DNA of 11,087 nucleotides from Nitrospinota bacterium (GTDB lineage: Bacteria > Nitrospinota > Nitrospinia > JACRGO01). The stretch spans positions 1 through 11,087 of the forward strand of contig JACRGO010000231.1 of NCBI GenBank assembly GCA_016212295.1, written 5' to 3'. The notes beneath the pieces are model-generated. The model saw only the letters and a program-made list of their open reading frames with translations. It was not told the origin of the DNA and did not search any database. Both the position numbers and the translations under genes were made by a program. Positions 359-11,032 of this stretch are shown here, in pieces. Position 1 is the first letter of the stretch, and the number at the start of each line of letters is the position of its first letter.

Positions 359-2965
359 TTAAGGCAAATCCACGAATATGTAGCTCCCGGACCAGCTTCC
401 ATAAGACAGCGTTGATATCCCGTTTTGAGTGGAGGTTCCATAGGAAGGGAGGCCACCCTGAATTTCATAGACCACATTTCCCCCTGCCGCCATGGTTATT
501 CTTCCCGCGTGGACAGCGGCTGTGCAAACGGATGAATCATCCGTATAAGGGCCGATTCCCCATACGGTCCACGCTGTTCCGTTCTCAGGACAGATTCCCC
601 AGAATTTATCCCCGTTTCTTCCTCGATAGGATGCGGCGCTGGAACTCCAGCTTATCAGGCCCAACTGGGTTACGGTCACCTTATTCACCGCGGGGTCCGT
701 GAAGGTAAAGCTTGCGCCCCATGTTCCATAAGAATTGCTCGTTACGCCGTTCCTGGTTGTTGAAGCATAGGAGCTCATCCCTTCCTTTACAACAATAGTT
801 ATCCTTCCTCCATCGGCGTAGGTGATAAGGCCCATATGGACGGCAGCGCTGCATAGGGAAGAATCGGAAGTGTAGGTGTCGGTCCCCCAAAAAGTGGAAG
901 CAGCGCCTTTAGGAGGGCAAACGCCGGAATACTTGTTTCCATTATTTGCGCTATACGCAGACGCCGTTGTGGTCCAGGTGATATCTCCCATATCAAACGC
1001 GTCCGTACCCGCCGCCACGCCGAAATCTCCGGTGATCGTCACCACGTCCCCAGGCTTTCCGGATTTAGGTGAAAAGGTTATGGAGGAACTTGCCAGGGCG
1101 GACAGGGCCTTCCCTTTCTTGCCCTTTACCGTGAACTTGATTCCCTTTCTCTCAATCTTCATCTTCAAGTCGGAGCGTACGAAATCGCGGCCGAACCGGT
1201 CATAGAGATTGACCTTGGAGAAGTTGATCTCTCCATCCGCGGCCTTGCTTGCTACAACCTCGAATTTCAACACGCCTATCTGGGTGCGCTTATTGTTCAC
1301 CGGGGCCTTCCCCTTTTTCTTGTAGGCCAGTGAGACCACCGCCAAGCCCTTCTTGCGAAATTCCGCGCGCGCGTCAAAGTCCTTTTTCAATTTCTTGTCC
1401 AGGGTGAATTTGGACGCCTTCAATATCCTGGCCGGATACACAAGGCTGAATTCCGATGAGTTCATATCGTTAAGCGTGCTGACGTACAGAGGAACCTCTA
1501 TATAGCGTTTCGCCGATTTCGCGGATTGCGTGGCCGTTTCTAATTGACCATTGACGATTGACGATTGAGAATTGTCTTCCGCCGTCCGTCCTCCGTCTTC
1601 CGTCCTCTGCTCCAATTGAAAATTGTCAATTGACAATTGAAAATTGGCTTCCGTTCCCAAATCCACGATCCTGGTCTTCTGAAACACTTTAATGTCCTTT
1701 AAGGAAGGCCAATCCTTGTTCACCACGTAATAAAGGATCAGGCCCGCGTCGTTGGCCATGATGACGCTGTCACCGTCGATGTCGCCTCCAGCAAGAGGAC
1801 CTTCCCCCGGTTCGGCAAAACCCGTGGAGTACACGAAGGCATTAGAGGAATCATTGGCCTGGACCTTCGCGTCTCCGGTCACGTCCCCTTTGCGGTACTT
1901 GAGTTGGATCTTGAGCGCGCCGTCCGAGGTGTTAAGGGAGATGGCCTTGCCCTCAGGGGTCTTGACCGAGGACGGGAGCGTGGCATGGGCCTGGCCGTGG
2001 AATTTGAAGTCAGTGGTCTTGCCGTCCGAGGCGGAGTCCAGTATCTCGAAGACGACGTTGAACAGGGTCCCGACTCCCCGCAGGGGCTTATTTACCGCGT
2101 TCTTGACGGATATCTTCACCGTGCCTGCCGACGGCTCGGAGAATTCCCATTCGTACTCATAGGACAGGATGGTTTTGTCCACTGAGGAGGGTTTTAGTAT
2201 GGTGGAATCATAATCGATATAAATCTGCACCGCTCCCATTGTGAGTTTGTCGGCGTTCTCTATGTTCACCGGGACCTGGAGCGAGGCCGTGGCGCCCAGG
2301 GCCTTGCCTGTTCCCTTTTCCTGCGCCCCGTTCACGTTTGGTATCCACAGGGAGATGGTCCCGAACATGGCGGAGGCGGACTCGGACTTGTCGCTTTCCT
2401 TGCCGCCGTATGCGGCGCTCACCTTGTAATAATAGGTTGTGCCGATAACAAGGCTTGCGGACTCGTCCAGATAAAAGGCGTCGGTGACGCCGGATTGAAT
2501 AAGGGAATACGTGCCGCCTTCGCTGGAGGCCCGGTAAATATTGCAGCCGGAAATCCCTTCCGCTATGGGGGGTGTCCAGGAGACCTCGATATTTCCCACG
2601 GAGGACCGCGCCTTCACGTCAAAGGGGGCGGGAGTGGGTGTGATGACCTCGAAGTCCGCGGCGCTCAGCCTGAGACTGCCGTCCGAGGTCTCGACCGATA
2701 TTGGGCCAGTGGTCGCTCCCACCGGGACCTTGGCCTTGATTTCAGAAGTGGAACTCGACGCCACCTCCGCGGCAACGCCGTTGAACTTCACAATGGGATA
2801 AGTGGTTAAGGAGGAAGAGTTTTTTAGTTTGATTGGTCTGGTTGGTTCAATTGGTCCGGCGAGCAAAAGATTTCCAGCCCCGATCCCCCAAAGGCATAGT
2901 AAGGCCATGAAAATGGCAGGGACCAATATCAACTTTCCAAGTTTTTCACTGCATCTGATGCGCAT
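359..2965 (-). CDS. Secreted cohesin-dockerin scaffold protein with two C-terminal LCCL domains
   Basis: An 868-residue exported modular protein, probably extracellular or surface-associated. Visible in order: Sec signal peptide (about 1-36); C-terminal half of an IPT/TIG domain (56-105, core VKFNGVAAEV); FN3 domain (111-198); cohesin-like domain (about 205-345); dockerin with two calcium loops (Asp361/Thr363/Asp365/Asp372 and Asp395/Asp397/Asp399/Asp406); repeat-encoded linker (440-475); second cohesin-like domain (488-620); N-terminal half of a TIG domain (626-650, core SPKSGKPGDVVTITG); and two LCCL domains (about 657-757 and 765-868). Each LCCL copy has two Cys 22 residues apart (683/705 and 792/814) and the family signature SS-x-C-x-AAVH-x-G. 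The first ~650 residues parallel the gene just upstream, whose stop lies 30 bases away, so cotranscription is likely. The start is the ATG at 2965; no Shine-Dalgarno sequence precedes it. No sortase, PEP-CTERM or type IX signal is seen. Binding targets cannot be told from sequence. Confidence 0.88.
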   Translation of the reverse strand: MRIRCSEKLGKLILVPAIFMALLCLWGIGAGNLLLAGPIEPTRPIKLKNSSSLTTYPIVKFNGVAAEVASSSTSEIKAKVPVGATTGPISVETSDGSLRLSAADFEVITPTPAPFDVKARSSVGNIEVSWTPPIAEGISGCNIYRASSEGGTYSLIQSGVTDAFYLDESASLVIGTTYYYKVSAAYGGKESDKSESASAMFGTISLWIPNVNGAQEKGTGKALGATASLQVPVNIENADKLTMGAVQIYIDYDSTILKPSSVDKTILSYEYEWEFSEPSAGTVKISVKNAVNKPLRGVGTLFNVVFEILDSASDGKTTDFKFHGQAHATLPSSVKTPEGKAISLNTSDGALKIQLKYRKGDVTGDAKVQANDSSNAFVYSTGFAEPGEGPLAGGDIDGDSVIMANDAGLILYYVVNKDWPSLKDIKVFQKTRIVDLGTEANFQLSIDNFQLEQRTEDGGRTAEDNSQSSIVNGQLETATQSAKSAKRYIEVPLYVSTLNDMNSSEFSLVYPARILKASKFTLDKKLKKDFDARAEFRKKGLAVVSLAYKKKGKAPVNNKRTQIGVLKFEVVASKAADGEINFSKVNLYDRFGRDFVRSDLKMKIERKGIKFTVKGKKGKALSALASSSITFSPKSGKPGDVVTITGDFGVAAGTDAFDMGDITWTTTASAYSANNGNKYSGVCPPKGAASTFWGTDTYTSDSSLCSAAVHMGLITYADGGRITIVVKEGMSSYASTTRNGVTSNSYGTWGASFTFTDPAVNKVTVTQLGLISWSSSAASYRGRNGDKFWGICPENGTAWTVWGIGPYTDDSSVCTAAVHAGRITMAAGGNVVYEIQGGLPSYGTSTQNGISTLSYGSWSGSYIFVDLP
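1541..1647. repeat. In-frame cluster of three heptamer repeat families (linker of LCCL protein)
   Basis: Plus-strand reading shows consecutive 7-base units: an ATTGACN-like family (1541-1576), a TCCGTCN-like family (about 1577-1610) and a CAATTGA-like family (1612-1647). All lie inside the reading frame and encode residues about 440-475. Three heptamers equal seven codons, so the peptide repeats every seven residues (NFQLSID then NFQLE). Immediately left, 1511-1528 carries two 9-base units related to CGCGGATTG. The cluster sits between the dockerin and the second cohesin-like domain. Confidence 0.85.
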
Positions 2966-2995: not shown

Positions 2996-5900
2996 CTACG
3001 GGCCTGTCGTAAAACTCCATGCATAGCTGCTTGCCATCGCGTTCCCGGCCAAATCCTTTACCCCTGTTGTGACCGTGATTGTGTAAGCAGTGTTGGCGAA
3101 AAAGCCGGTTGTCGGCGTAAGGGTCGCGGTTGTGCCTGAGTAATTAATGGACATGCCTGGACCTGGACTTGAGGTAATAGTGGAAGTGGTAATGCTTGCC
3201 GGGTCCATTGCCTCTGAGAATATTATTGTAATGATGCCGCTGGCGCCGCCGCTTGGCACGCCAGTTGCCCCATTGGCGGGACTTACCGAACTTACAGTCG
3301 GCGGAATGGCGTCAGAGGTGGCGGAGGTTGTAAAACTCCATGCGTAACTGCTTGCCATTGCGTTCCCGGCCGCGTCCTTCACCCCGGTGGTGATTGTCGC
3401 GGTGTAGGTTGTATTCGGCGAAAGATTGGATGAGGGCGTGAAGGTGGCGGTCGCGCCGGAGTATGCCACCGAGCCGGTTACTCCGCCACTTACCGTGAAT
3501 GTGGATGTGGTAATGGTAGAGGAGTCCATTGTCTCGGAGAATGTCGCTGTGATTGATGTATTGGTTCCAACGCCTGTTGCCCCAAGGGCGGGACTTACCG
3601 AGTTTACATTGGGCGCCGTGGTGTCGCCTCCTCCCGCTGTCGTAAAACTCCATGAGTAGCTGCTTGCCATTGCGTTCCCGGCCGAATCCTTTACCCCTGT
3701 TGTGACAGTGATTGTGTAAGTAGTGCCGGCGAAAAAGCCGGTTGTCGGCGTAAGGGTCGCGGTTGTGCCTGAGTAATTAATAGACATGCCTGGGCCTGGG
3801 CTTGAGGTGATCGTGGAAGTGGTGATGCTTGCCGGGTCCATTGCCTCGGAGAATATGATGGTGATGATGCCGCTGGAAGATCCGCTAGGCACGCCCGTTG
3901 CCCCGGAGGCGGGACTTACCGAGCTTACAGTGGGCGCGGTCGTGTCGGTTCCTCCCGCTGTGGTAAAACTCCATGAGTAGCTGCTTGCCATTGCGTTACC
4001 AGCCGCGTCCTTCACCCCGGTGGTGATTGTCGCGGTGTAGGTTGTATTCGGTGAAAGATTTGATGAGGGCGTGAAGGTGGCGGTCTTGCCGGAGTATGCC
4101 ACCGAGCCGGTTACTCCTCCGCTTATCGTGAATGTTGATGCGGTAATTGTCGCGGAGTCCATTGACTCGGAGAATGTTGCTGTGATTGATGTGTTGGTTC
4201 CAACGCCTGCCGCTCCAAGGGCGGGACTTACCGAACTTACATTGGGCGCCGTGGTATCGCCTCCTCCCGCGGTTTTAAAATTCCATGAGTAGCTGTTTGG
4301 CAATGGATTTCCTGCGGAATCCCTTACCCCTGTCGTGACTGTAATGGTATAAACAGTGTTGGCGAAGAAACCGGTTGTCGGCGTAAGGGTTGCGGTTGTG
4401 CCTGAGTAATTAATGGACATGCCCGGACCAGGGCTTGAGGTGATAGTGGAAGTGGTGATGCTTGTAGGGTCCATTGCCTCGGAGAATATGATCGTGATGA
4501 TGCCGCTGGCGCCGCCGCTTGGCACGCCAGTTGCCCCATTGGCGGGACTTACCGAGCTTACAGCGGGCGCCGTGGAGTCGGCCCCTGCCCCTGTTTTAAA
4601 ACTCCATAAGTAGCTGCTTGCCATCGCGTTTCCCGCCGTGTCCTTTACCCCGGTGGTTATTGTCGCGGTGTAGGTTGTATTCGGCGATAGGGGCGCTGAT
4701 GGCTTGAATTTAGCGGTCACGCCGGAGTACGCCACCGAGCCGGTTACTCCTCCGCTTACCGTGAACGTGGCGGCGGTGATGGTCTTTGGGTCCATTGTTT
4801 TTGAAAATGTAGCGGTGACAGCGGTATTGGTTCCAACGCCTGTCGCCCCAAGGGCGGGGCTTACCGAGCTTACATTTGGCGCCGTTGCGCCTCCTCCCCC
4901 TGTTTTAAAATTTATCGAACCGCTTGCCGCCGGCGACACATTCCCCGCCGCGTCCCTGAACCACACATAAACCGTCTTCACTCCCTGTCCGCTGCTCAAG
5001 GTAAATGATACGCTTGCCGAATAGCTCGCCTCGGATGCAACAGGTTCCCATCCCGAAGCTCCTGCCGCCGGCGTTGTCGGCGTTTCCGACGCGTAATATC
5101 CGGTAACCCCTGCGTCATCAGTCGCCGATAGGGACAGGGTAACATTCGCTGATGTTGTGCTTGACGCGCCGCCGTTGATAAAGTTGGTGGATGTTGTGTT
5201 TTTCGGCGCGGTTGTATCCGCCGCGAAATTCCCCTGTATTGTAATTACATCCCCCACATTTCCCTTTTTAGGGGAAAAGGTGACGGTGGACGCCAGGGAG
5301 GCCGCATCAAAAGCCTTGCCTGTCCCGGCCTTTATCGTGAACTTGGCGCCCTTTTTCACAATGCTCATATTCAGGTCCGAACGGACGAAGTCCCGCCCGA
5401 ACCGGTCATAGAGATTGATACTGGAAAAACCTACCTCGCCTTTTGCCGTTTTGTTCGCCAGAACCTCGAATTTCAACGTTCCAAAGGCTGTGCGCTTGAA
5501 GCCGGCGGAGGCCCGGCCCTTCTTCTTGTACACCAGTGAAACCACGGCCAGGCCATTTCTCCGGAATTCCGTTCGCGCGTCGAACAATTTTTTGATGCCC
5601 TTGTCCGGCGTGAATTTTACCGCCTTTAATATACTTAAGGGATAGACAACTCCGAATTCCCCTGAATTCATGTCATTCAGCGTGCTGATATACAGTGGAA
5701 CTTCCAGGAATTGACGATTTACAATTGATGATTGGCGATTGACGATTGACAAGTTATTTCCGTCCTTCGTCTTTCGTCCTTCGTTCTCTTCTCCCTGCCC
5801 CCTGTCCCCTGCCCCCTGCTCCAATTGACCATTGACCAATGACCAATGACTACTTAGTTTTGAAACAAGCGTCTTTGTCCCCATATCCACGGTCCGTTCC

Positions 5901-7129
5901 TTTTGATAAACGTCGATATTTTCCAGGGACGGCCAGCCGTTGTTTACCACATAATATAGAATAAGGCCGGAATCGTTGGTCATTATGGATTTGTCTCCAT
6001 CAATATCCCCGCCTGCCAAGGGACCCGCCGCCGGCTCTATGATTCCCGCCGCATAGACAAAGGCGGATGAGGAGTCATTGGACCGCACCTTCGCGTCCCC
6101 GTTTACGTCCCCTTTGCGGTATTGTAACTGGATAGTCAACGCCCCGTTGCTCAGATTCAAGGGAATTTCCCTTCCCTCCGGAGACTTGATGAAAGAAGGG
6201 AGGGAATGATTTTTGTCATGGAAGGCGAAATTCACCGTTTGCCCTTCCTTCGCCGCGTCCAGGACTTCAAAGACGATATTAAAGAGGGCGCCCACGCCTC
6301 TAAGGGGCTTATTCACCGCCTGCTTGATATATATTTTAACGGTTCCGGGGGACGCCACGGCGATTTGCCAATCGTATTCCACTGAAAGGATCGTCTTTTC
6401 CACGCTGGAGGGTTTTAAAAAAGAGGCGTCGTAGTCGATATACAACTCCACCTCGCCCATTGTGAGTTTGTCGGCGTTCTCCACGTTGACAGGGACCAGG
6501 AGATTGGATTTGGAGCTCAGGGCCTTGGAGTCCTTTTTCTCTTGCGCGCCGTTCACGTTGGGAATCCATAGGGATATGGTCCCGAAAACAGCGGAAGCGG
6601 CCTCGGATTGGCCGCTTTCCTTGCCCTTGGCGTAAACCGCGCCGACTTTGTAAAAATAAGTCTCGCCGGACGCAAGGTCCTTCGATTCGTCCAGATAAAA
6701 TGTCTCCGTCACGCCGGACTTGATTTGGGCATAGGTCCCGTTTTCACTCGCGGAGCGGTAGATGTTATATCCTGTCAAATCCTCCGCTATCGGCGGACTC
6801 CACGAAATCTCGATGTTCTCCACGGAGGCCTTCGCGGTGACGCCGGTTGGCGCGGGGCTTTGGGATTCCACCTCGAAATCCTCCTCGCTGAATTGGACAG
6901 TCCCGCCTTCCGTTTCAACTGATATGGGGCCAGTGCTTGCGCCCAAAGGGACCCTGGCCTTGACCTCGGAATCTGAACTGGATAGGACCTCGGCGGCAAC
7001 GCCGTTGAACTTAACGACAGGGTAGCTCGCCGGACCGCCAGCGGCATAGCGGCTGAAGGCGGGGAAAAATGAATAAAGCAGGAAGCCGCCAAGAAGGAGA
7101 AGAAACGCGCTTGTTTTTCCGGCATTCAT
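2996..7129 (-). CDS. Giant secreted cohesin-dockerin protein with six SbsA-type Ig-like repeats
   Basis: A 1377-residue exported modular protein. Order: signal peptide (about 1-30); C-terminal half of a TIG domain (36-84); FN3 (88-180); cohesin-like (182-335); dockerin with calcium loops Asp341/Asn343/Asp345/Asp352 and Asp375/Asp377/Asp379/Asp386; repeat-encoded linker (427-474); second cohesin-like domain (475-605); N-terminal TIG half (614-636); an Ig-like segment (639-742); then six SbsA/Big_5-type Ig-like domains (743-1377) with the family's SVSP-x-x-GATGV opening and D-x-AGNAM-x-SSY ending. I chose the ATG at 7129 because GAGA lies 7 bases upstream; the frame can also open at a TTG at 7141, which lacks such a site. 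The gene follows the barrel gene by about 84 bases and precedes its paralogue by 30. It ends abruptly after the last Ig-like domain with no anchoring signal. Likely role, by inference: an elongated surface or extracellular adhesin or scaffold. Confidence 0.88.
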   Translation of the reverse strand: MNAGKTSAFLLLLGGFLLYSFFPAFSRYAAGGPASYPVVKFNGVAAEVLSSSDSEVKARVPLGASTGPISVETEGGTVQFSEEDFEVESQSPAPTGVTAKASVENIEISWSPPIAEDLTGYNIYRSASENGTYAQIKSGVTETFYLDESKDLASGETYFYKVGAVYAKGKESGQSEAASAVFGTISLWIPNVNGAQEKKDSKALSSKSNLLVPVNVENADKLTMGEVELYIDYDASFLKPSSVEKTILSVEYDWQIAVASPGTVKIYIKQAVNKPLRGVGALFNIVFEVLDAAKEGQTVNFAFHDKNHSLPSFIKSPEGREIPLNLSNGALTIQLQYRKGDVNGDAKVRSNDSSSAFVYAAGIIEPAAGPLAGGDIDGDKSIMTNDSGLILYYVVNNGWPSLENIDVYQKERTVDMGTKTLVSKLSSHWSLVNGQLEQGAGDRGQGEENEGRKTKDGNNLSIVNRQSSIVNRQFLEVPLYISTLNDMNSGEFGVVYPLSILKAVKFTPDKGIKKLFDARTEFRRNGLAVVSLVYKKKGRASAGFKRTAFGTLKFEVLANKTAKGEVGFSSINLYDRFGRDFVRSDLNMSIVKKGAKFTIKAGTGKAFDAASLASTVTFSPKKGNVGDVITIQGNFAADTTAPKNTTSTNFINGGASSTTSANVTLSLSATDDAGVTGYYASETPTTPAAGASGWEPVASEASYSASVSFTLSSGQGVKTVYVWFRDAAGNVSPAASGSINFKTGGGGATAPNVSSVSPALGATGVGTNTAVTATFSKTMDPKTITAATFTVSGGVTGSVAYSGVTAKFKPSAPLSPNTTYTATITTGVKDTAGNAMASSYLWSFKTGAGADSTAPAVSSVSPANGATGVPSGGASGIITIIFSEAMDPTSITTSTITSSPGPGMSINYSGTTATLTPTTGFFANTVYTITVTTGVRDSAGNPLPNSYSWNFKTAGGGDTTAPNVSSVSPALGAAGVGTNTSITATFSESMDSATITASTFTISGGVTGSVAYSGKTATFTPSSNLSPNTTYTATITTGVKDAAGNAMASSYSWSFTTAGGTDTTAPTVSSVSPASGATGVPSGSSSGIITIIFSEAMDPASITTSTITSSPGPGMSINYSGTTATLTPTTGFFAGTTYTITVTTGVKDSAGNAMASSYSWSFTTAGGGDTTAPNVNSVSPALGATGVGTNTSITATFSETMDSSTITTSTFTVSGGVTGSVAYSGATATFTPSSNLSPNTTYTATITTGVKDAAGNAMASSYAWSFTTSATSDAIPPTVSSVSPANGATGVPSGGASGIITIIFSEAMDPASITTSTITSSPGPGMSINYSGTTATLTPTTGFFANTAYTITVTTGVKDLAGNAMASSYAWSFTTGP
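2999..4905 (-). repeat. Three tandem copies of a ~633-base A-B double-Ig unit
   Basis: Six Ig-like domains alternate between type A (about 312 bases, GVGTNT and SGGVTGSVAYSG) and type B (321 bases, GASGIITIIFSEAMD and SSPGPGMSINYSG). The recurring TAAAA(C/T)T-type domain boundary falls at 3010, 3331, 3643, 3964, 4276, 4597 and 4906. The true period is therefore the A-B pair: 633, 633 and 630 bases. Type B copies are nearly identical at protein level; the outermost A copy (first in the protein) is the most diverged. The pattern implies duplication of a two-domain block. Confidence 0.9.
5709..5849. repeat. In-frame cluster of four heptamer repeat families (linker of giant protein)
   Basis: Successive 7-base arrays on the plus strand: GATTGAC-like, six units (5709-5750); CGTCCTT-like, about four units (5761-5788); CCCTGCC-like, four units (5793-5820); and CAATTGA/CCAATGA-like, four units (5822-5849). 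They encode a Gln/Asn/Gly/Glu-rich linker (residues about 427-474) including the heptapeptide repeat SIVNRQS. The position in the protein, between dockerin and second cohesin-like domain, matches the array at 1541-1647 in the neighbouring paralogue, and the families occur in the same order. Confidence 0.88.
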
Positions 7130-7159
7130 GGGTTTTCTCAAAAGTGGGTTTATGAACTT

Positions 7160-7213: not shown

Positions 7214-8611
7214 TTAAAAATGTACAATGGCGGAAAGCAGGAAGATATGCTGCCGGACGTCCGCCGAGGCGTTCTCCACCTCTATATTGTCCTTTTCCAC
7301 GCGGTTCCCGAAGCGGAACTGCCAGGCTGCGTCCACCACTACATTCCCGAACATCCAGCCTGTGCCCAGGCCGACCCCATAAAAGGCCTCGTTTGAATTC
7401 GTGGCAGGCTCCGGGTCAATAAAAAATCCTCCGCGGAAAGGGATGATTGTCCTGTATTTAATCCATAAATATTCCGCTCCGAACCGGAACTGGTTCGTGG
7501 CTGATATGCCGGAGCCTCCCAGCTCCCCGCCGTTCACCGGACTGGTAACATTGCCTTGCCCGTCCCGCATTGCGAATTTCTTCCACTCGGTGCGGTACGC
7601 GTCGAAGGAGACCGTTAACTCATCGGAAAAACGGCAGGCGGCGCCAAGGCCGTAGGAATCCGGGAACCGGAGGGAAAAACTTTCGTCAAATGAGGCCTGG
7701 CCCTGTGTGTCCAGCCAGGGCGAATCAGGATATTCCACGCGGCTTTCATAAAAAAAATCGTGCCTCCCTTTCAGCTTAAAGGCTGTCTTGTATACAGCGC
7801 CTATGGTGATTCTGTCCGTGATATTCCATAAAAACCCCGCGTTAAGGTTCTGGCCCCAAAGATCATGGTAGCGGTTCTTGATGGCGGCGCGGCTGCTGAA
7901 TGGATCGCCCGCGAGGCTTCCTGTTCCGGTGGATTCATACCGGTTTTCCCATCCCCTGTTGACCCCTGCCTGGCGTGGATAGAGATTCAGCGTAAAGCCA
8001 AGGGAAATTTCCGGGGCCAGTTGAAGGCAAAAGGCGGGGGACAGGGAATTTATGCTTCCATGCTGCTTGAAATCGATGTTTCTGTCAAAGTTGAAATCGA
8101 ATCCAGGCGCGAGGGATTGCCTTAAGTTGTAATCAAAATTAATATTGGAATCAAGGCTGTACAGATTCTGGTGGTTGAGGGAAAAGGCCATGTTTTTTTC
8201 CAGAAACCGGAAGGGCAGGGCAAGGCTGAAATAATTTATTTCCGAAGTGGACACAGGATTTCCCCCTTGCGCCTCCGGGTGCGCCGGGGAGGAGAACCAG
8301 GCGCCAAGCCTGTTGCGGGAAAGGACCATTGACGCCTCCGCGGTTTCCAACTGGATCAGTCCACCAGGGTTCCACGACGCGGCGGTGGCGTCGTCCGCCA
8401 CGGCGATAAAGGCGCCTCCCATTCCCATGGCCCTGGCGCCGGACCCCACGGGATTAGGGGAAGACGCGATCCGCACCTGCTGAAAGATGGTGGCGTCGCT
8501 GAAGGCGTAAGCCGCGTTGGAAAGAGAGGACAGGAACGGAAAAAGACACAGCCAGGAGAAACGGATTATTAAAGAATGAACATCGAACATTGAACATCGA
8601 ACGTCGAACAT
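7214..8611 (-). CDS. OmpP1/FadL-like outer-membrane beta-barrel protein
   Basis: A 465-residue predicted outer-membrane barrel. A hydrophobic signal peptide (about residues 14-36) ends in AYA, giving likely cleavage before FSDA. The mature N terminus carries the motif SGARAMGMGGAFIAVADDA followed by WNPGGL, typical of the OmpP1/FadL/TodX superfamily and its PorV-like relatives. The rest alternates amphipathic strands rich in aromatic residues, and the chain ends IVHF with the terminal Phe expected for BAM-dependent insertion. FadL relatives import hydrophobic compounds, while PorV acts in type IX export; the sequence does not choose between these. The only in-frame ATGs ahead of the signal peptide (8611 and 8590) both lie in a heptamer array, and neither has a Shine-Dalgarno sequence, so the first 13 residues are repeat-encoded. 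It precedes the two cohesin-dockerin genes and may be cotranscribed with them. Confidence 0.87.
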   Translation of the reverse strand: MFDVRCSMFDVHSLIIRFSWLCLFPFLSSLSNAAYAFSDATIFQQVRIASSPNPVGSGARAMGMGGAFIAVADDATAASWNPGGLIQLETAEASMVLSRNRLGAWFSSPAHPEAQGGNPVSTSEINYFSLALPFRFLEKNMAFSLNHQNLYSLDSNINFDYNLRQSLAPGFDFNFDRNIDFKQHGSINSLSPAFCLQLAPEISLGFTLNLYPRQAGVNRGWENRYESTGTGSLAGDPFSSRAAIKNRYHDLWGQNLNAGFLWNITDRITIGAVYKTAFKLKGRHDFFYESRVEYPDSPWLDTQGQASFDESFSLRFPDSYGLGAACRFSDELTVSFDAYRTEWKKFAMRDGQGNVTSPVNGGELGGSGISATNQFRFGAEYLWIKYRTIIPFRGGFFIDPEPATNSNEAFYGVGLGTGWMFGNVVVDAAWQFRFGNRVEKDNIEVENASADVRQHIFLLSAIVHF

Positions 8612-8882: not shown

Positions 8883-8929
8883 GCCTCTGTGCCTTTGTGC
8901 CTTTTATCCTTCGCCTTTCGCCCTTCTCA
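8883..8929. repeat. Octamer and heptamer units running into the lipoprotein stop codon
   Basis: GCCTCTGT and GCCTTTGT (8883-8898) belong to the same octamer family as 8676-8734. They are followed by heptamers CTTCGCC, TTTCGCC and CTTCTCA (8909-8929). The last unit contains the TGA stop of the lipoprotein gene (8927-8929 on the minus strand). Confidence 0.65.
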
Positions 8930-10984
8930 TTTCATTATCACCAAATCGCCGGCCTTTATCTCCCCGCTCTTCAGATGCTTGACAATTTCGCCCTTGGAGT
9001 AAGCCTCCAGAACGCCGGTGATCTTGCCCTCGGCCAGGATAACCGCGTCAGCGCCAAGCTTTTTCCCGGTCAGCGGCTGGATAACCGGCTCTCCCTCCCT
9101 GTAGATCAGCGCCCTGCTGTTTTCCCGGATATTGCTCCTGAGGCCCAGGTCGAGGGTCAGCTCTTTTCCATTGGCCCGCACCACCATCCCCTCGGCCAAG
9201 GGAATCTTTTCCATGAACTTCGCCGCCAGCCCGCGGCATATATAATCAAGGCCCTTCATGGACTTGTCGGTGGTGAATACGTCCTCCGCGGCAAGGACCT
9301 CCGAGGTTTCAGTGTCAATAATCCGCGCGAATATCTCGACGGATTCCGGAGACTCCGAAATGGCGCCTGCAAGGATGGCCTCCGCAGCCGTGATCTTGCC
9401 TATTCGCACCGCTGAGTCGGGGTCCACAAGGTCCGTCCTGGAAAGGCCCACTTCCTTCAGGACCGCATCCAACTCCTTTCCCCGGCTGACTATTTTGAAC
9501 CGCCTGGAGTCCATCAGGGCGTTCAGCATCATGTCATAAGACCGTGGAGACAATTCCGCCTGGCCGCTCTTTTCCTGAAAGGGCAGAACGGACAGGGCCA
9601 GGCGCGAGCCAACGGACCTGGCCTTTTGGGGATTCCTGGTGACGATGAATTCCTTTTCAACGACATTCCCAAGGGCGTCCCCGGCCTTGACGCTGATCCT
9701 GTTTTCCCCTTCCTTGAGGCGGACTATGTAATTAAAAAACAGTTCAAGCGCGGGTTTGACGTTCAGGGATTCCCCGTTGATTTCCACGAACTTCACCTTG
9801 CCGGAATCAGCGACGCTCCCCTGTAAATAATAATCCTCGGCGTACACCGGCACATTCTCTTCCATTCCCTCCAGCCTGATCCTTGGAGGCGCAGTGTCCT
9901 CAGTGGAAAATAGCCCGGCGAGCATGCCCGGAGCCGGTTCCATGTTCATTGCCAGGAGCGCTGGTTCAGCCAGGCCGGCAAGGAGCGGGCGGACCTCTGC
10001 CCGGCTTTCATTGCCAAGAATGTCCCGCGCCTTTATCTCAAGGGCCTCATTTTGCCTGAGCTGTTTTTTGAAAATCAATTCCCTGCTCTTTCCGTCCGTT
10101 TCCAAGCCTGAGACAAACACGACAGGGGATGAGTCCGCCAGCCGGATTGTCAGTATCTTGCCGCCTGGCTCTTCCCCTTCCTCCTGGTCCACGATGCTCA
10201 CAACCGGGCCTTCCCTGTCCAGGAAAACATCCAGGCTCTTTTCGGCCTTGTTCCCGGACAGGTCTTCTACTTCAATGCTGATCCGGTTATTGCCCTTCAC
10301 GAGAAAAAGCGATTTTTGGAAAGAATAGCTCTTTTCCGCGAGCTCCATGAAGACCCGCTCCCCGTTTATCCGGACGCCGGACACGTACCCGGCGTCTTCC
10401 ACTGCGCCGTTTAGTTGGAAAACGGGATTATTGGTGAGCGAGCGGGTTTCCTTGGCCGCGATATGAATCGCCGGGGACGTCGTGTCCTTTTCATTCCTGG
10501 CGATGAGGGCCTTCCGCATGAGGTTGGCGTAAAATTTGGCCTTGCCGCTTTCAGCCTGGGCCAGGGACAGAAGGATTTCCTTTTCTCCCTCCTCGAATCT
10601 CCCCTGGTGATATAAAACCACCGCGAGATCGCGATGCGGGAAATAATCGATGAAATGAAGCCCGTAGGTCCTTGCCATGCGCGCGTCTTTATCGCGCAAG
10701 GCTATGGCCTGGCGCAGGTCCCGTTCCGCCTCCTCCAAAAATCCTCCCGCCAGAAAGGAGCAGCCCCGCTCGTAATAATTCCACCACCGGTCGCGGAAGA
10801 GTCCGCGCGTGGTCCCGTATTCCTTTCCCTCCTTCATGTATTGGGGACTAACCGCCTGTCTGCAGCCGGGGAGGAACAACGCCAGGAAAAAAAGGAAGAG
10901 ATAGAACGCGGAAGACGCGGATTTGTACGGATCTATAAAAACATTTTTTTTATTCTTGTAAATTCGTGTTATCCGGGAATTCAT
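8927..10984 (-). CDS. TPR / Ig-like / CsgG-like outer-membrane lipoprotein
   Basis: A 685-residue predicted lipoprotein. The hydrophobic segment ends in lipobox LPGC (Cys41). Next come TPR-like helices (about 67-162, with RWWNYYERG, YFPHRDLAVVLYHQG and GRFEEGEKEI), Ig-like segments typical of GNNRISI-type beta domains (about 170-257, 259-332 and 365-450), a CsgG-like domain (459-592: LSVLPF, then RRFKIVSRGKELDAVLKEVG and IGKITAAEAILAGAI) and a FlgT-like C-terminal domain (596-685). CsgG forms the curli export pore, but many CsgG-like lipoproteins lack export activity, so a role in envelope assembly is inference. I chose ATG 10984; a TTG at 11023 also opens the frame but no ribosome-binding site favours it. 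The 34-residue stretch ahead of the hydrophobic core is unusually long and partly repeat-derived. The barrel gene follows after 315 bases of repeats. Confidence 0.85.
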   Translation of the reverse strand: MNSRITRIYKNKKNVFIDPYKSASSAFYLFLFFLALFLPGCRQAVSPQYMKEGKEYGTTRGLFRDRWWNYYERGCSFLAGGFLEEAERDLRQAIALRDKDARMARTYGLHFIDYFPHRDLAVVLYHQGRFEEGEKEILLSLAQAESGKAKFYANLMRKALIARNEKDTTSPAIHIAAKETRSLTNNPVFQLNGAVEDAGYVSGVRINGERVFMELAEKSYSFQKSLFLVKGNNRISIEVEDLSGNKAEKSLDVFLDREGPVVSIVDQEEGEEPGGKILTIRLADSSPVVFVSGLETDGKSRELIFKKQLRQNEALEIKARDILGNESRAEVRPLLAGLAEPALLAMNMEPAPGMLAGLFSTEDTAPPRIRLEGMEENVPVYAEDYYLQGSVADSGKVKFVEINGESLNVKPALELFFNYIVRLKEGENRISVKAGDALGNVVEKEFIVTRNPQKARSVGSRLALSVLPFQEKSGQAELSPRSYDMMLNALMDSRRFKIVSRGKELDAVLKEVGLSRTDLVDPDSAVRIGKITAAEAILAGAISESPESVEIFARIIDTETSEVLAAEDVFTTDKSMKGLDYICRGLAAKFMEKIPLAEGMVVRANGKELTLDLGLRSNIRENSRALIYREGEPVIQPLTGKKLGADAVILAEGKITGVLEAYSKGEIVKHLKSGEIKAGDLVIMK
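10908..10934. repeat. 9-base repeat units in the lipoprotein signal-peptide region
   Basis: GCGGAAGAC, GCGGATTTG and TACGGATCT are consecutive 9-base units sharing a CGGA core, within the first codons of the lipoprotein. The same 9-base class occurs at 1511-1528 in the linker of the LCCL protein. Confidence 0.5.
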
Positions 10985-11032
10985 CTCGCGCAATCCATTC
11001 AAGTTTGTTAAATCAAAACCCAAAAATGAACC

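Follow-up and report, generated by a model that had tools for sequence, protein, structure and literature searches.

A bacterial cohesin/dockerin-type protein that ends in tandem LCCL domains, from a paralogue family with one chassis and different C-termini

Genes of the window and chassis of the 868-aa protein

The window, meaning the whole 11,087-bp stretch of DNA that was analysed, is an entire 11-kb contig from the 237-contig assembly of a Nitrospinota bacterium. On its minus strand the ORF 359..2965 encodes an 868-aa protein, for which Pfam searches and paralogue alignment gave the domain order signal segment, TIG-like segment, fibronectin type III (Fn3), cohesin 1, dockerin, cohesin 2, hinge, LCCL, LCCL. 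The part before the LCCL domains is a chassis common to several paralogues (TIG-Fn3-cohesin-dockerin-cohesin, ending in a conserved hinge), and a sister protein of 1381 aa (2996..7141, minus) shares it at 61% identity and carries six Big_5 repeats instead of LCCL. Upstream on the same strand lie a FadL/BamG/PorV-like outer-membrane β-barrel (7214..8611, minus) and a protein that bears a lipobox as well as TPR, Ig-like and CsgG/LpoB-like regions (8927..11023, minus). Among the ORFs at other chassis loci no counterpart of the β-barrel was found, and the lipobox-bearing protein gave a weak match at one such locus only. An Rfam search of the window returned no match, and a promoter scan gave scores no better than those of shuffles.

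The 868-aa protein begins with a putative signal segment, a hydrophobic stretch of about residues 1–40 read from the sequence (2846..2965, minus). The TIG-like segment that follows (residues 54–105; 2651..2806, minus) scored 18.2 bits, under the Pfam cut-off of 20.9, and the TIG match rises above the cut-off in the diverged paralogues L032 and L033. Similarly, the Fn3 domain (residues 113–195; 2381..2629, minus) is under the Pfam cut-off here and above it in the sister protein, and a profile of the chassis built from six paralogues matches the Fn3 structure 3mpc with an E-value of 8.7e-9. Cohesin 1 (1985..2284, minus) is over the PF00963 cut-off at about 46–47.1 bits, and the same profile matches the solved cohesin 2xdh. 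The type I dockerin-like module (about residues 360–422; 1700..1888, minus) has two D-x-x-x-D...D loops, with calcium loops that are only partly canonical, and taken in isolation scored 11.6 bits against the PF00404 cut-off of 22.9. The chassis profile, however, matches the solved type I dockerins 5nrm_B (E 3.4e-5) and 4uyp_B, and the paralogue C214 has a Pfam-positive dockerin of 39 bits at the same position. The second cohesin-like domain (about residues 486–613; 1127..1510, minus) rests on alignment with C214, where its equivalent is PF00963-positive at 40.8 bits. Thus the naming of this gene product as a cohesin/dockerin protein in the preliminary description stands directly for the cohesin (47 bits) and, through profile and paralogue, for the dockerin, though the latter is itself under the Pfam cut-off.

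The hinge SSITFSPKSGKPGDVVTITGDF (1022..1087, minus) marks the junction between chassis and C-terminal module and recurs in the paralogues before their differing C-termini. A model of the full-length protein was unreliable across the chassis (mean pLDDT 53.9) because few sequences entered the alignment, and no anchor was recognised in the 868-aa protein. In both chassis proteins of the window, the linker that joins the dockerin to cohesin 2 contains recurring phrases such as SIVNGQL and MFDVRCSMFDV. Phrases of this kind are also found at the start of the 7214–8611 ORF, and the linkers resemble translated dispersed repeats; a 20-mer search flagged only the Big_5 region. Cellulosomal scaffoldins are arrays of cohesins that bind dockerin-bearing glycoside hydrolases, with a CBM or SLH anchor. 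Among the paralogues scanned there was no match to CBM, SLH or glycoside hydrolase families, and only the cohesin-dockerin-cohesin arrangement was present. The term 'scaffold' in the preliminary description would, in the cellulosomal sense, be a putative one.

Identity of the C-terminal repeats

Both C-terminal repeats of the 868-aa protein are LCCL domains, as confirmed by profile and by predicted fold. Domain 1 (707..958, minus) matched PF03815 at 71.7 bits (E 1.6e-19) and domain 2 (383..631, minus) at 66.4 bits (E 7.2e-18), both well above the curated cut-off of 22.6 bits, whereas 14 control genomes searched in the same way yielded zero LCCL matches. The two copies jointly reached 125 bits in hmmscan, and phmmer against the PDB found the cochlin LCCL domain 1jbi (E 1.3e-9). 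An AlphaFold2 model of the tandem, made from an alignment that included 36 bacterial relatives, had a mean pLDDT of 94.0, and its best structural match was again 1jbi (Foldseek E 1.4e-6; Z 13.8, rmsd 2.0 Å over 98 residues), with Rxt3-type subunits of fungal histone deacetylase complexes ranking next (Z 8.6–11). For the LCCL tandem at the end of the protein, the preliminary description is therefore upheld by both profile and fold.

Classical animal LCCL members typically have four cysteines, which is not a requirement of the profile. Both window copies lack two of these four and keep only the conserved C...C pair, C683/C705 in one and C792/C814 in the other, with a spacing of 22 in each. A quick tree, with weak branch support, did not pair the two copies as sisters and so gave no support to an origin by duplication in situ.

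An LCCL end could also be a contaminating or mis-joined fragment of a metagenome assembly. The extent of the window, a whole 11-kb contig among 237, would permit this, and so would the absence of LCCL from 76 other genomes of the same class that were searched and the lower third-position GC of the LCCL part (0.54 versus 0.69 for the chassis). However, the reading frame is unbroken across the junction, the hinge preceding LCCL is the same as in the paralogues, the third-position GC lies inside the genome range at about the 9th percentile of windows, and the estimated contamination of the assembly is 0.38%; we consider such an artefact very improbable and treat the LCCL pair as a genuine end of the protein. 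The same percentile gave no support to recent horizontal import as judged by composition.

LCCL domains in other bacteria and their combination with cohesin/dockerin

The best-known LCCL domains belong to animal proteins that adhere to microbes, and the preliminary description named animal and apicomplexan secreted proteins as their best-known source. LCCL is not, however, mainly eukaryotic. We scanned a genome collection with a hand-made degenerate DNA motif, whose pattern takes in the second cysteine and some of the core, and obtained at least 116 bacterial LCCL loci from many phyla (Alphaproteobacteria, Myxococcota, Acidobacteria, Chloroflexi, Gemmatimonadetes, Actinobacteria, Cyanobacteria, Spirochaetes, Nitrospirae and others). 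In plasmids, only three LCCL records were found. Among the matches listed, the LCCL profile matched all 109 proteins scanned, two or more copies were present in 44 of 118 proteins, and the first two classical cysteines were missing in 67 of 159 aligned domains, window copies included. Hence four cysteines do not define the family in bacteria. The identical 22-residue spacing pointed out earlier is real in both window copies and is also the commonest in bacterial LCCLs, being the mode in the matches listed (67 of about 171 measured). Because the sample was picked by motif, all these fractions describe motif matches and not every bacterial LCCL.

Among the matches listed, single bacterial proteins combine LCCL with OmpA, peptidase M57, Hsp70, TIR, trypsin or PAN domains, and one protein from a Schekmanbacteria MAG (G142; L236:1471-2562) joins LCCL to Mucin2_WxxW, both of which are better known from animals. 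Moreover, the Rxt3 family PF08642 also matched 105 of the 109 bacterial LCCL proteins among the matches listed, and together with the Rxt3-type structural matches above this suggests an LCCL-like fold for Rxt3 of histone deacetylase complexes.

What is rare is the combination of LCCL with cohesin/dockerin, not LCCL in bacteria. Cohesin was found in one of the 109 LCCL proteins scanned among the matches listed, the window protein itself, and in 10 of 100 other LCCL-bearing genomes among the matches listed. In one of these 100 listed genomes, the Acidobacteria MAG metabat2.299 (G129 C689), a single ORF (L204:1315-3255) holds LCCL, cohesin and dockerin, with LCCL N-terminal, the reverse of the order in the window protein, and a dockerin of 15.8 bits against the cut-off of 22.9. 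The gene adjoining it (L204:451-1311) encodes a cohesin, then an apparent membrane segment and zinc ribbons, and its product is a possible anchor for the Acidobacteria dockerin. The recurrence of the three modules in another order, with a cohesin gene next door, suggests a functional association. The combination is thus known from two distant lineages. The preliminary description considered the architecture possibly new: LCCL and dockerin were not found in the same paper among the open-access papers searched, from which absence from all literature does not follow, but with the Acidobacteria ORF the architecture is not unique.

Paralogue family, proposed function and known systems

The genome contains 13 cohesin (PF00963) matches, 22 stretches resembling the 868-aa protein and three Pfam-positive dockerin places. 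Six chassis proteins, counting the 868-aa protein, are conserved to about residue 650–677 and then differ. The C-termini of the other five (the C191 sister, C18, C156, C211 and C214) consist of six Big_5, CHB_HEX_C_1, FGE-sulfatase, Ig-like repeats that were read by eye and have no Pfam match, and one end without a Pfam match. That the paralogues share a chassis but differ in their C-terminal modules is a point absent from the preliminary description. A profile search found the chassis in none of the 76 other same-class genomes, which also lack LCCL; the profile matches there, including those in a genome of the same genus, covered mostly the Fn3 part only. By sequence comparison the 868-aa protein is a member of a private family of paralogues, seen in one MAG.

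Two further relatives are shorter. A 369-aa protein (L028:898-2004, on C34) goes from the N-terminal TIG-like part to the hinge and on to Lcl_C (113 bits), without Fn3-cohesin-dockerin-cohesin, and a fragment on C156 carries RCC1 and cohesin 2 and terminates after the hinge. A diversity-generating retroelement was considered for the differing C-termini and rejected, the only reverse transcriptase in the assembled genome being a group II intron maturase.

We lean, with modest confidence, towards the 868-aa protein being a secreted, surface-associated, non-cellulosomal cohesin-dockerin adaptor that displays an LCCL ligand-binding tip. Secretion is suggested by one feature, the hydrophobic N-terminus. 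The Fn3-cohesin-dockerin-cohesin chassis would then join siblings, the dockerin of one chain entering a cohesin of another, and the joined siblings would form a surface or matrix assembly that may serve in adhesion. From it the LCCL pair would project as a putative ligand-binding tip, while siblings would display other tips on the common chassis. Cohesin and dockerin are established outside cellulosomes (PMC9012536). The ligand would probably be anionic glycans or lipid-A/LPS-like material, by analogy with animal LCCLs, for which binding to bacteria, LPS/lipid A and sulfated GAGs is reported (PMC10892792; PMC12839204).

The pairing of chains is the step at which another arrangement has to be weighed, namely that the cohesin and dockerin modules are not intermolecular plugs and either pack within the chain or stabilise an adhesin stalk as β-sandwich and calcium-binding elements. 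The presence of cohesin-dockerin-cohesin in one polypeptide is compatible with this, as are the degenerate dockerin of the 868-aa protein (by Pfam) and a survey for dockerin-bearing enzyme partners that spanned three Pfam-positive places. Nevertheless the 13 cohesin matches and the dockerins of this genome, which are spread over separate proteins, fit an interacting set, and strong mutual binding is reported for archaeal non-cellulosomal modules (PMC9012536). We regard the alternative as rather doubtful, although it keeps some weight, and prefer pairing between chains.

A second question concerns the tip. The adjacent sister has six Big_5 repeats at its end, another paralogue has Ig-like repeats there, and by comparison with these the LCCL pair might be a mere structural spacer or stalk with no specific ligand. 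Yet LCCL is compact, and its motif YTxDSxxCxAAVHxG is strongly conserved; part of this motif was used for selection of the sample, but positions outside the selection pattern, such as the first cysteine, are conserved as well. Moreover there are just two copies, at the extreme C-terminus, which is not stalk-like, and ligand binding is reported for animal LCCLs (PMC10892792; PMC12839204). A spacer role is therefore unlikely in our judgement, and a ligand-binding tip is the reading that we keep.

Several of the C-terminal families among the paralogues (LCCL, Lcl_C, CHB_HEX_C, FGE-sulfatase and Big_5) are extracellular or of binding type. More tentatively, and as a possibility that we would not yet call probable, the family may be a genome-wide display platform, in which a self-associating chassis would have been duplicated and its copies fitted, at a fixed hinge, with different binding- or catalytic-type modules, LCCL among them. 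The product would be a mixed, multivalent polymer on the surface, with a binding repertoire that would change by exchange of tips. If the adaptor reading is true, it would allow LCCL function to be tested in a bacterium, apart from animal immunity, and cohesin-dockerin chemistry would be presenting interchangeable ligand-binding tips and not cellulases. The broad bacterial spread of LCCL bears on the origin of the animal and apicomplexan LCCLs.

Compared with known systems, the window LCCL shares with that of cochlin (PF03815, PDB 1jbi) the fold and the CP...SSxC...AAVHxG core, but it has two of the four classical cysteines and is fused to cohesin/dockerin, whereas that of cochlin is fused to vWA domains. 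CRISPLD2/Lgl1, which is secreted, likewise carries a pair of LCCL domains, and its tandem is reported to bind lipid A (PMC10892792); it has a CAP/SCP domain where the window protein has cohesin-dockerin. Bacterial LCCL proteins (at least 116 loci) often have LCCL in tandem and often the same two-Cys pattern, but cohesin only in the window protein, of 109 scanned among the matches listed. The Acidobacteria metabat2.299 ORF also unites LCCL, cohesin and dockerin in one polypeptide; its LCCL, however, is single and N-terminal, with a Gly-rich linker and no Fn3 chassis. Non-cellulosomal archaeal/ANME proteins (PMC9012536) have both cohesin and dockerin in one protein with no cellulosome shown, and the window protein differs from them by its LCCL tip and by paralogues with differing C-termini. 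LCCL and this type of adaptor are thus each known, and what is new is their combination, within a private family with C-termini that look exchangeable.
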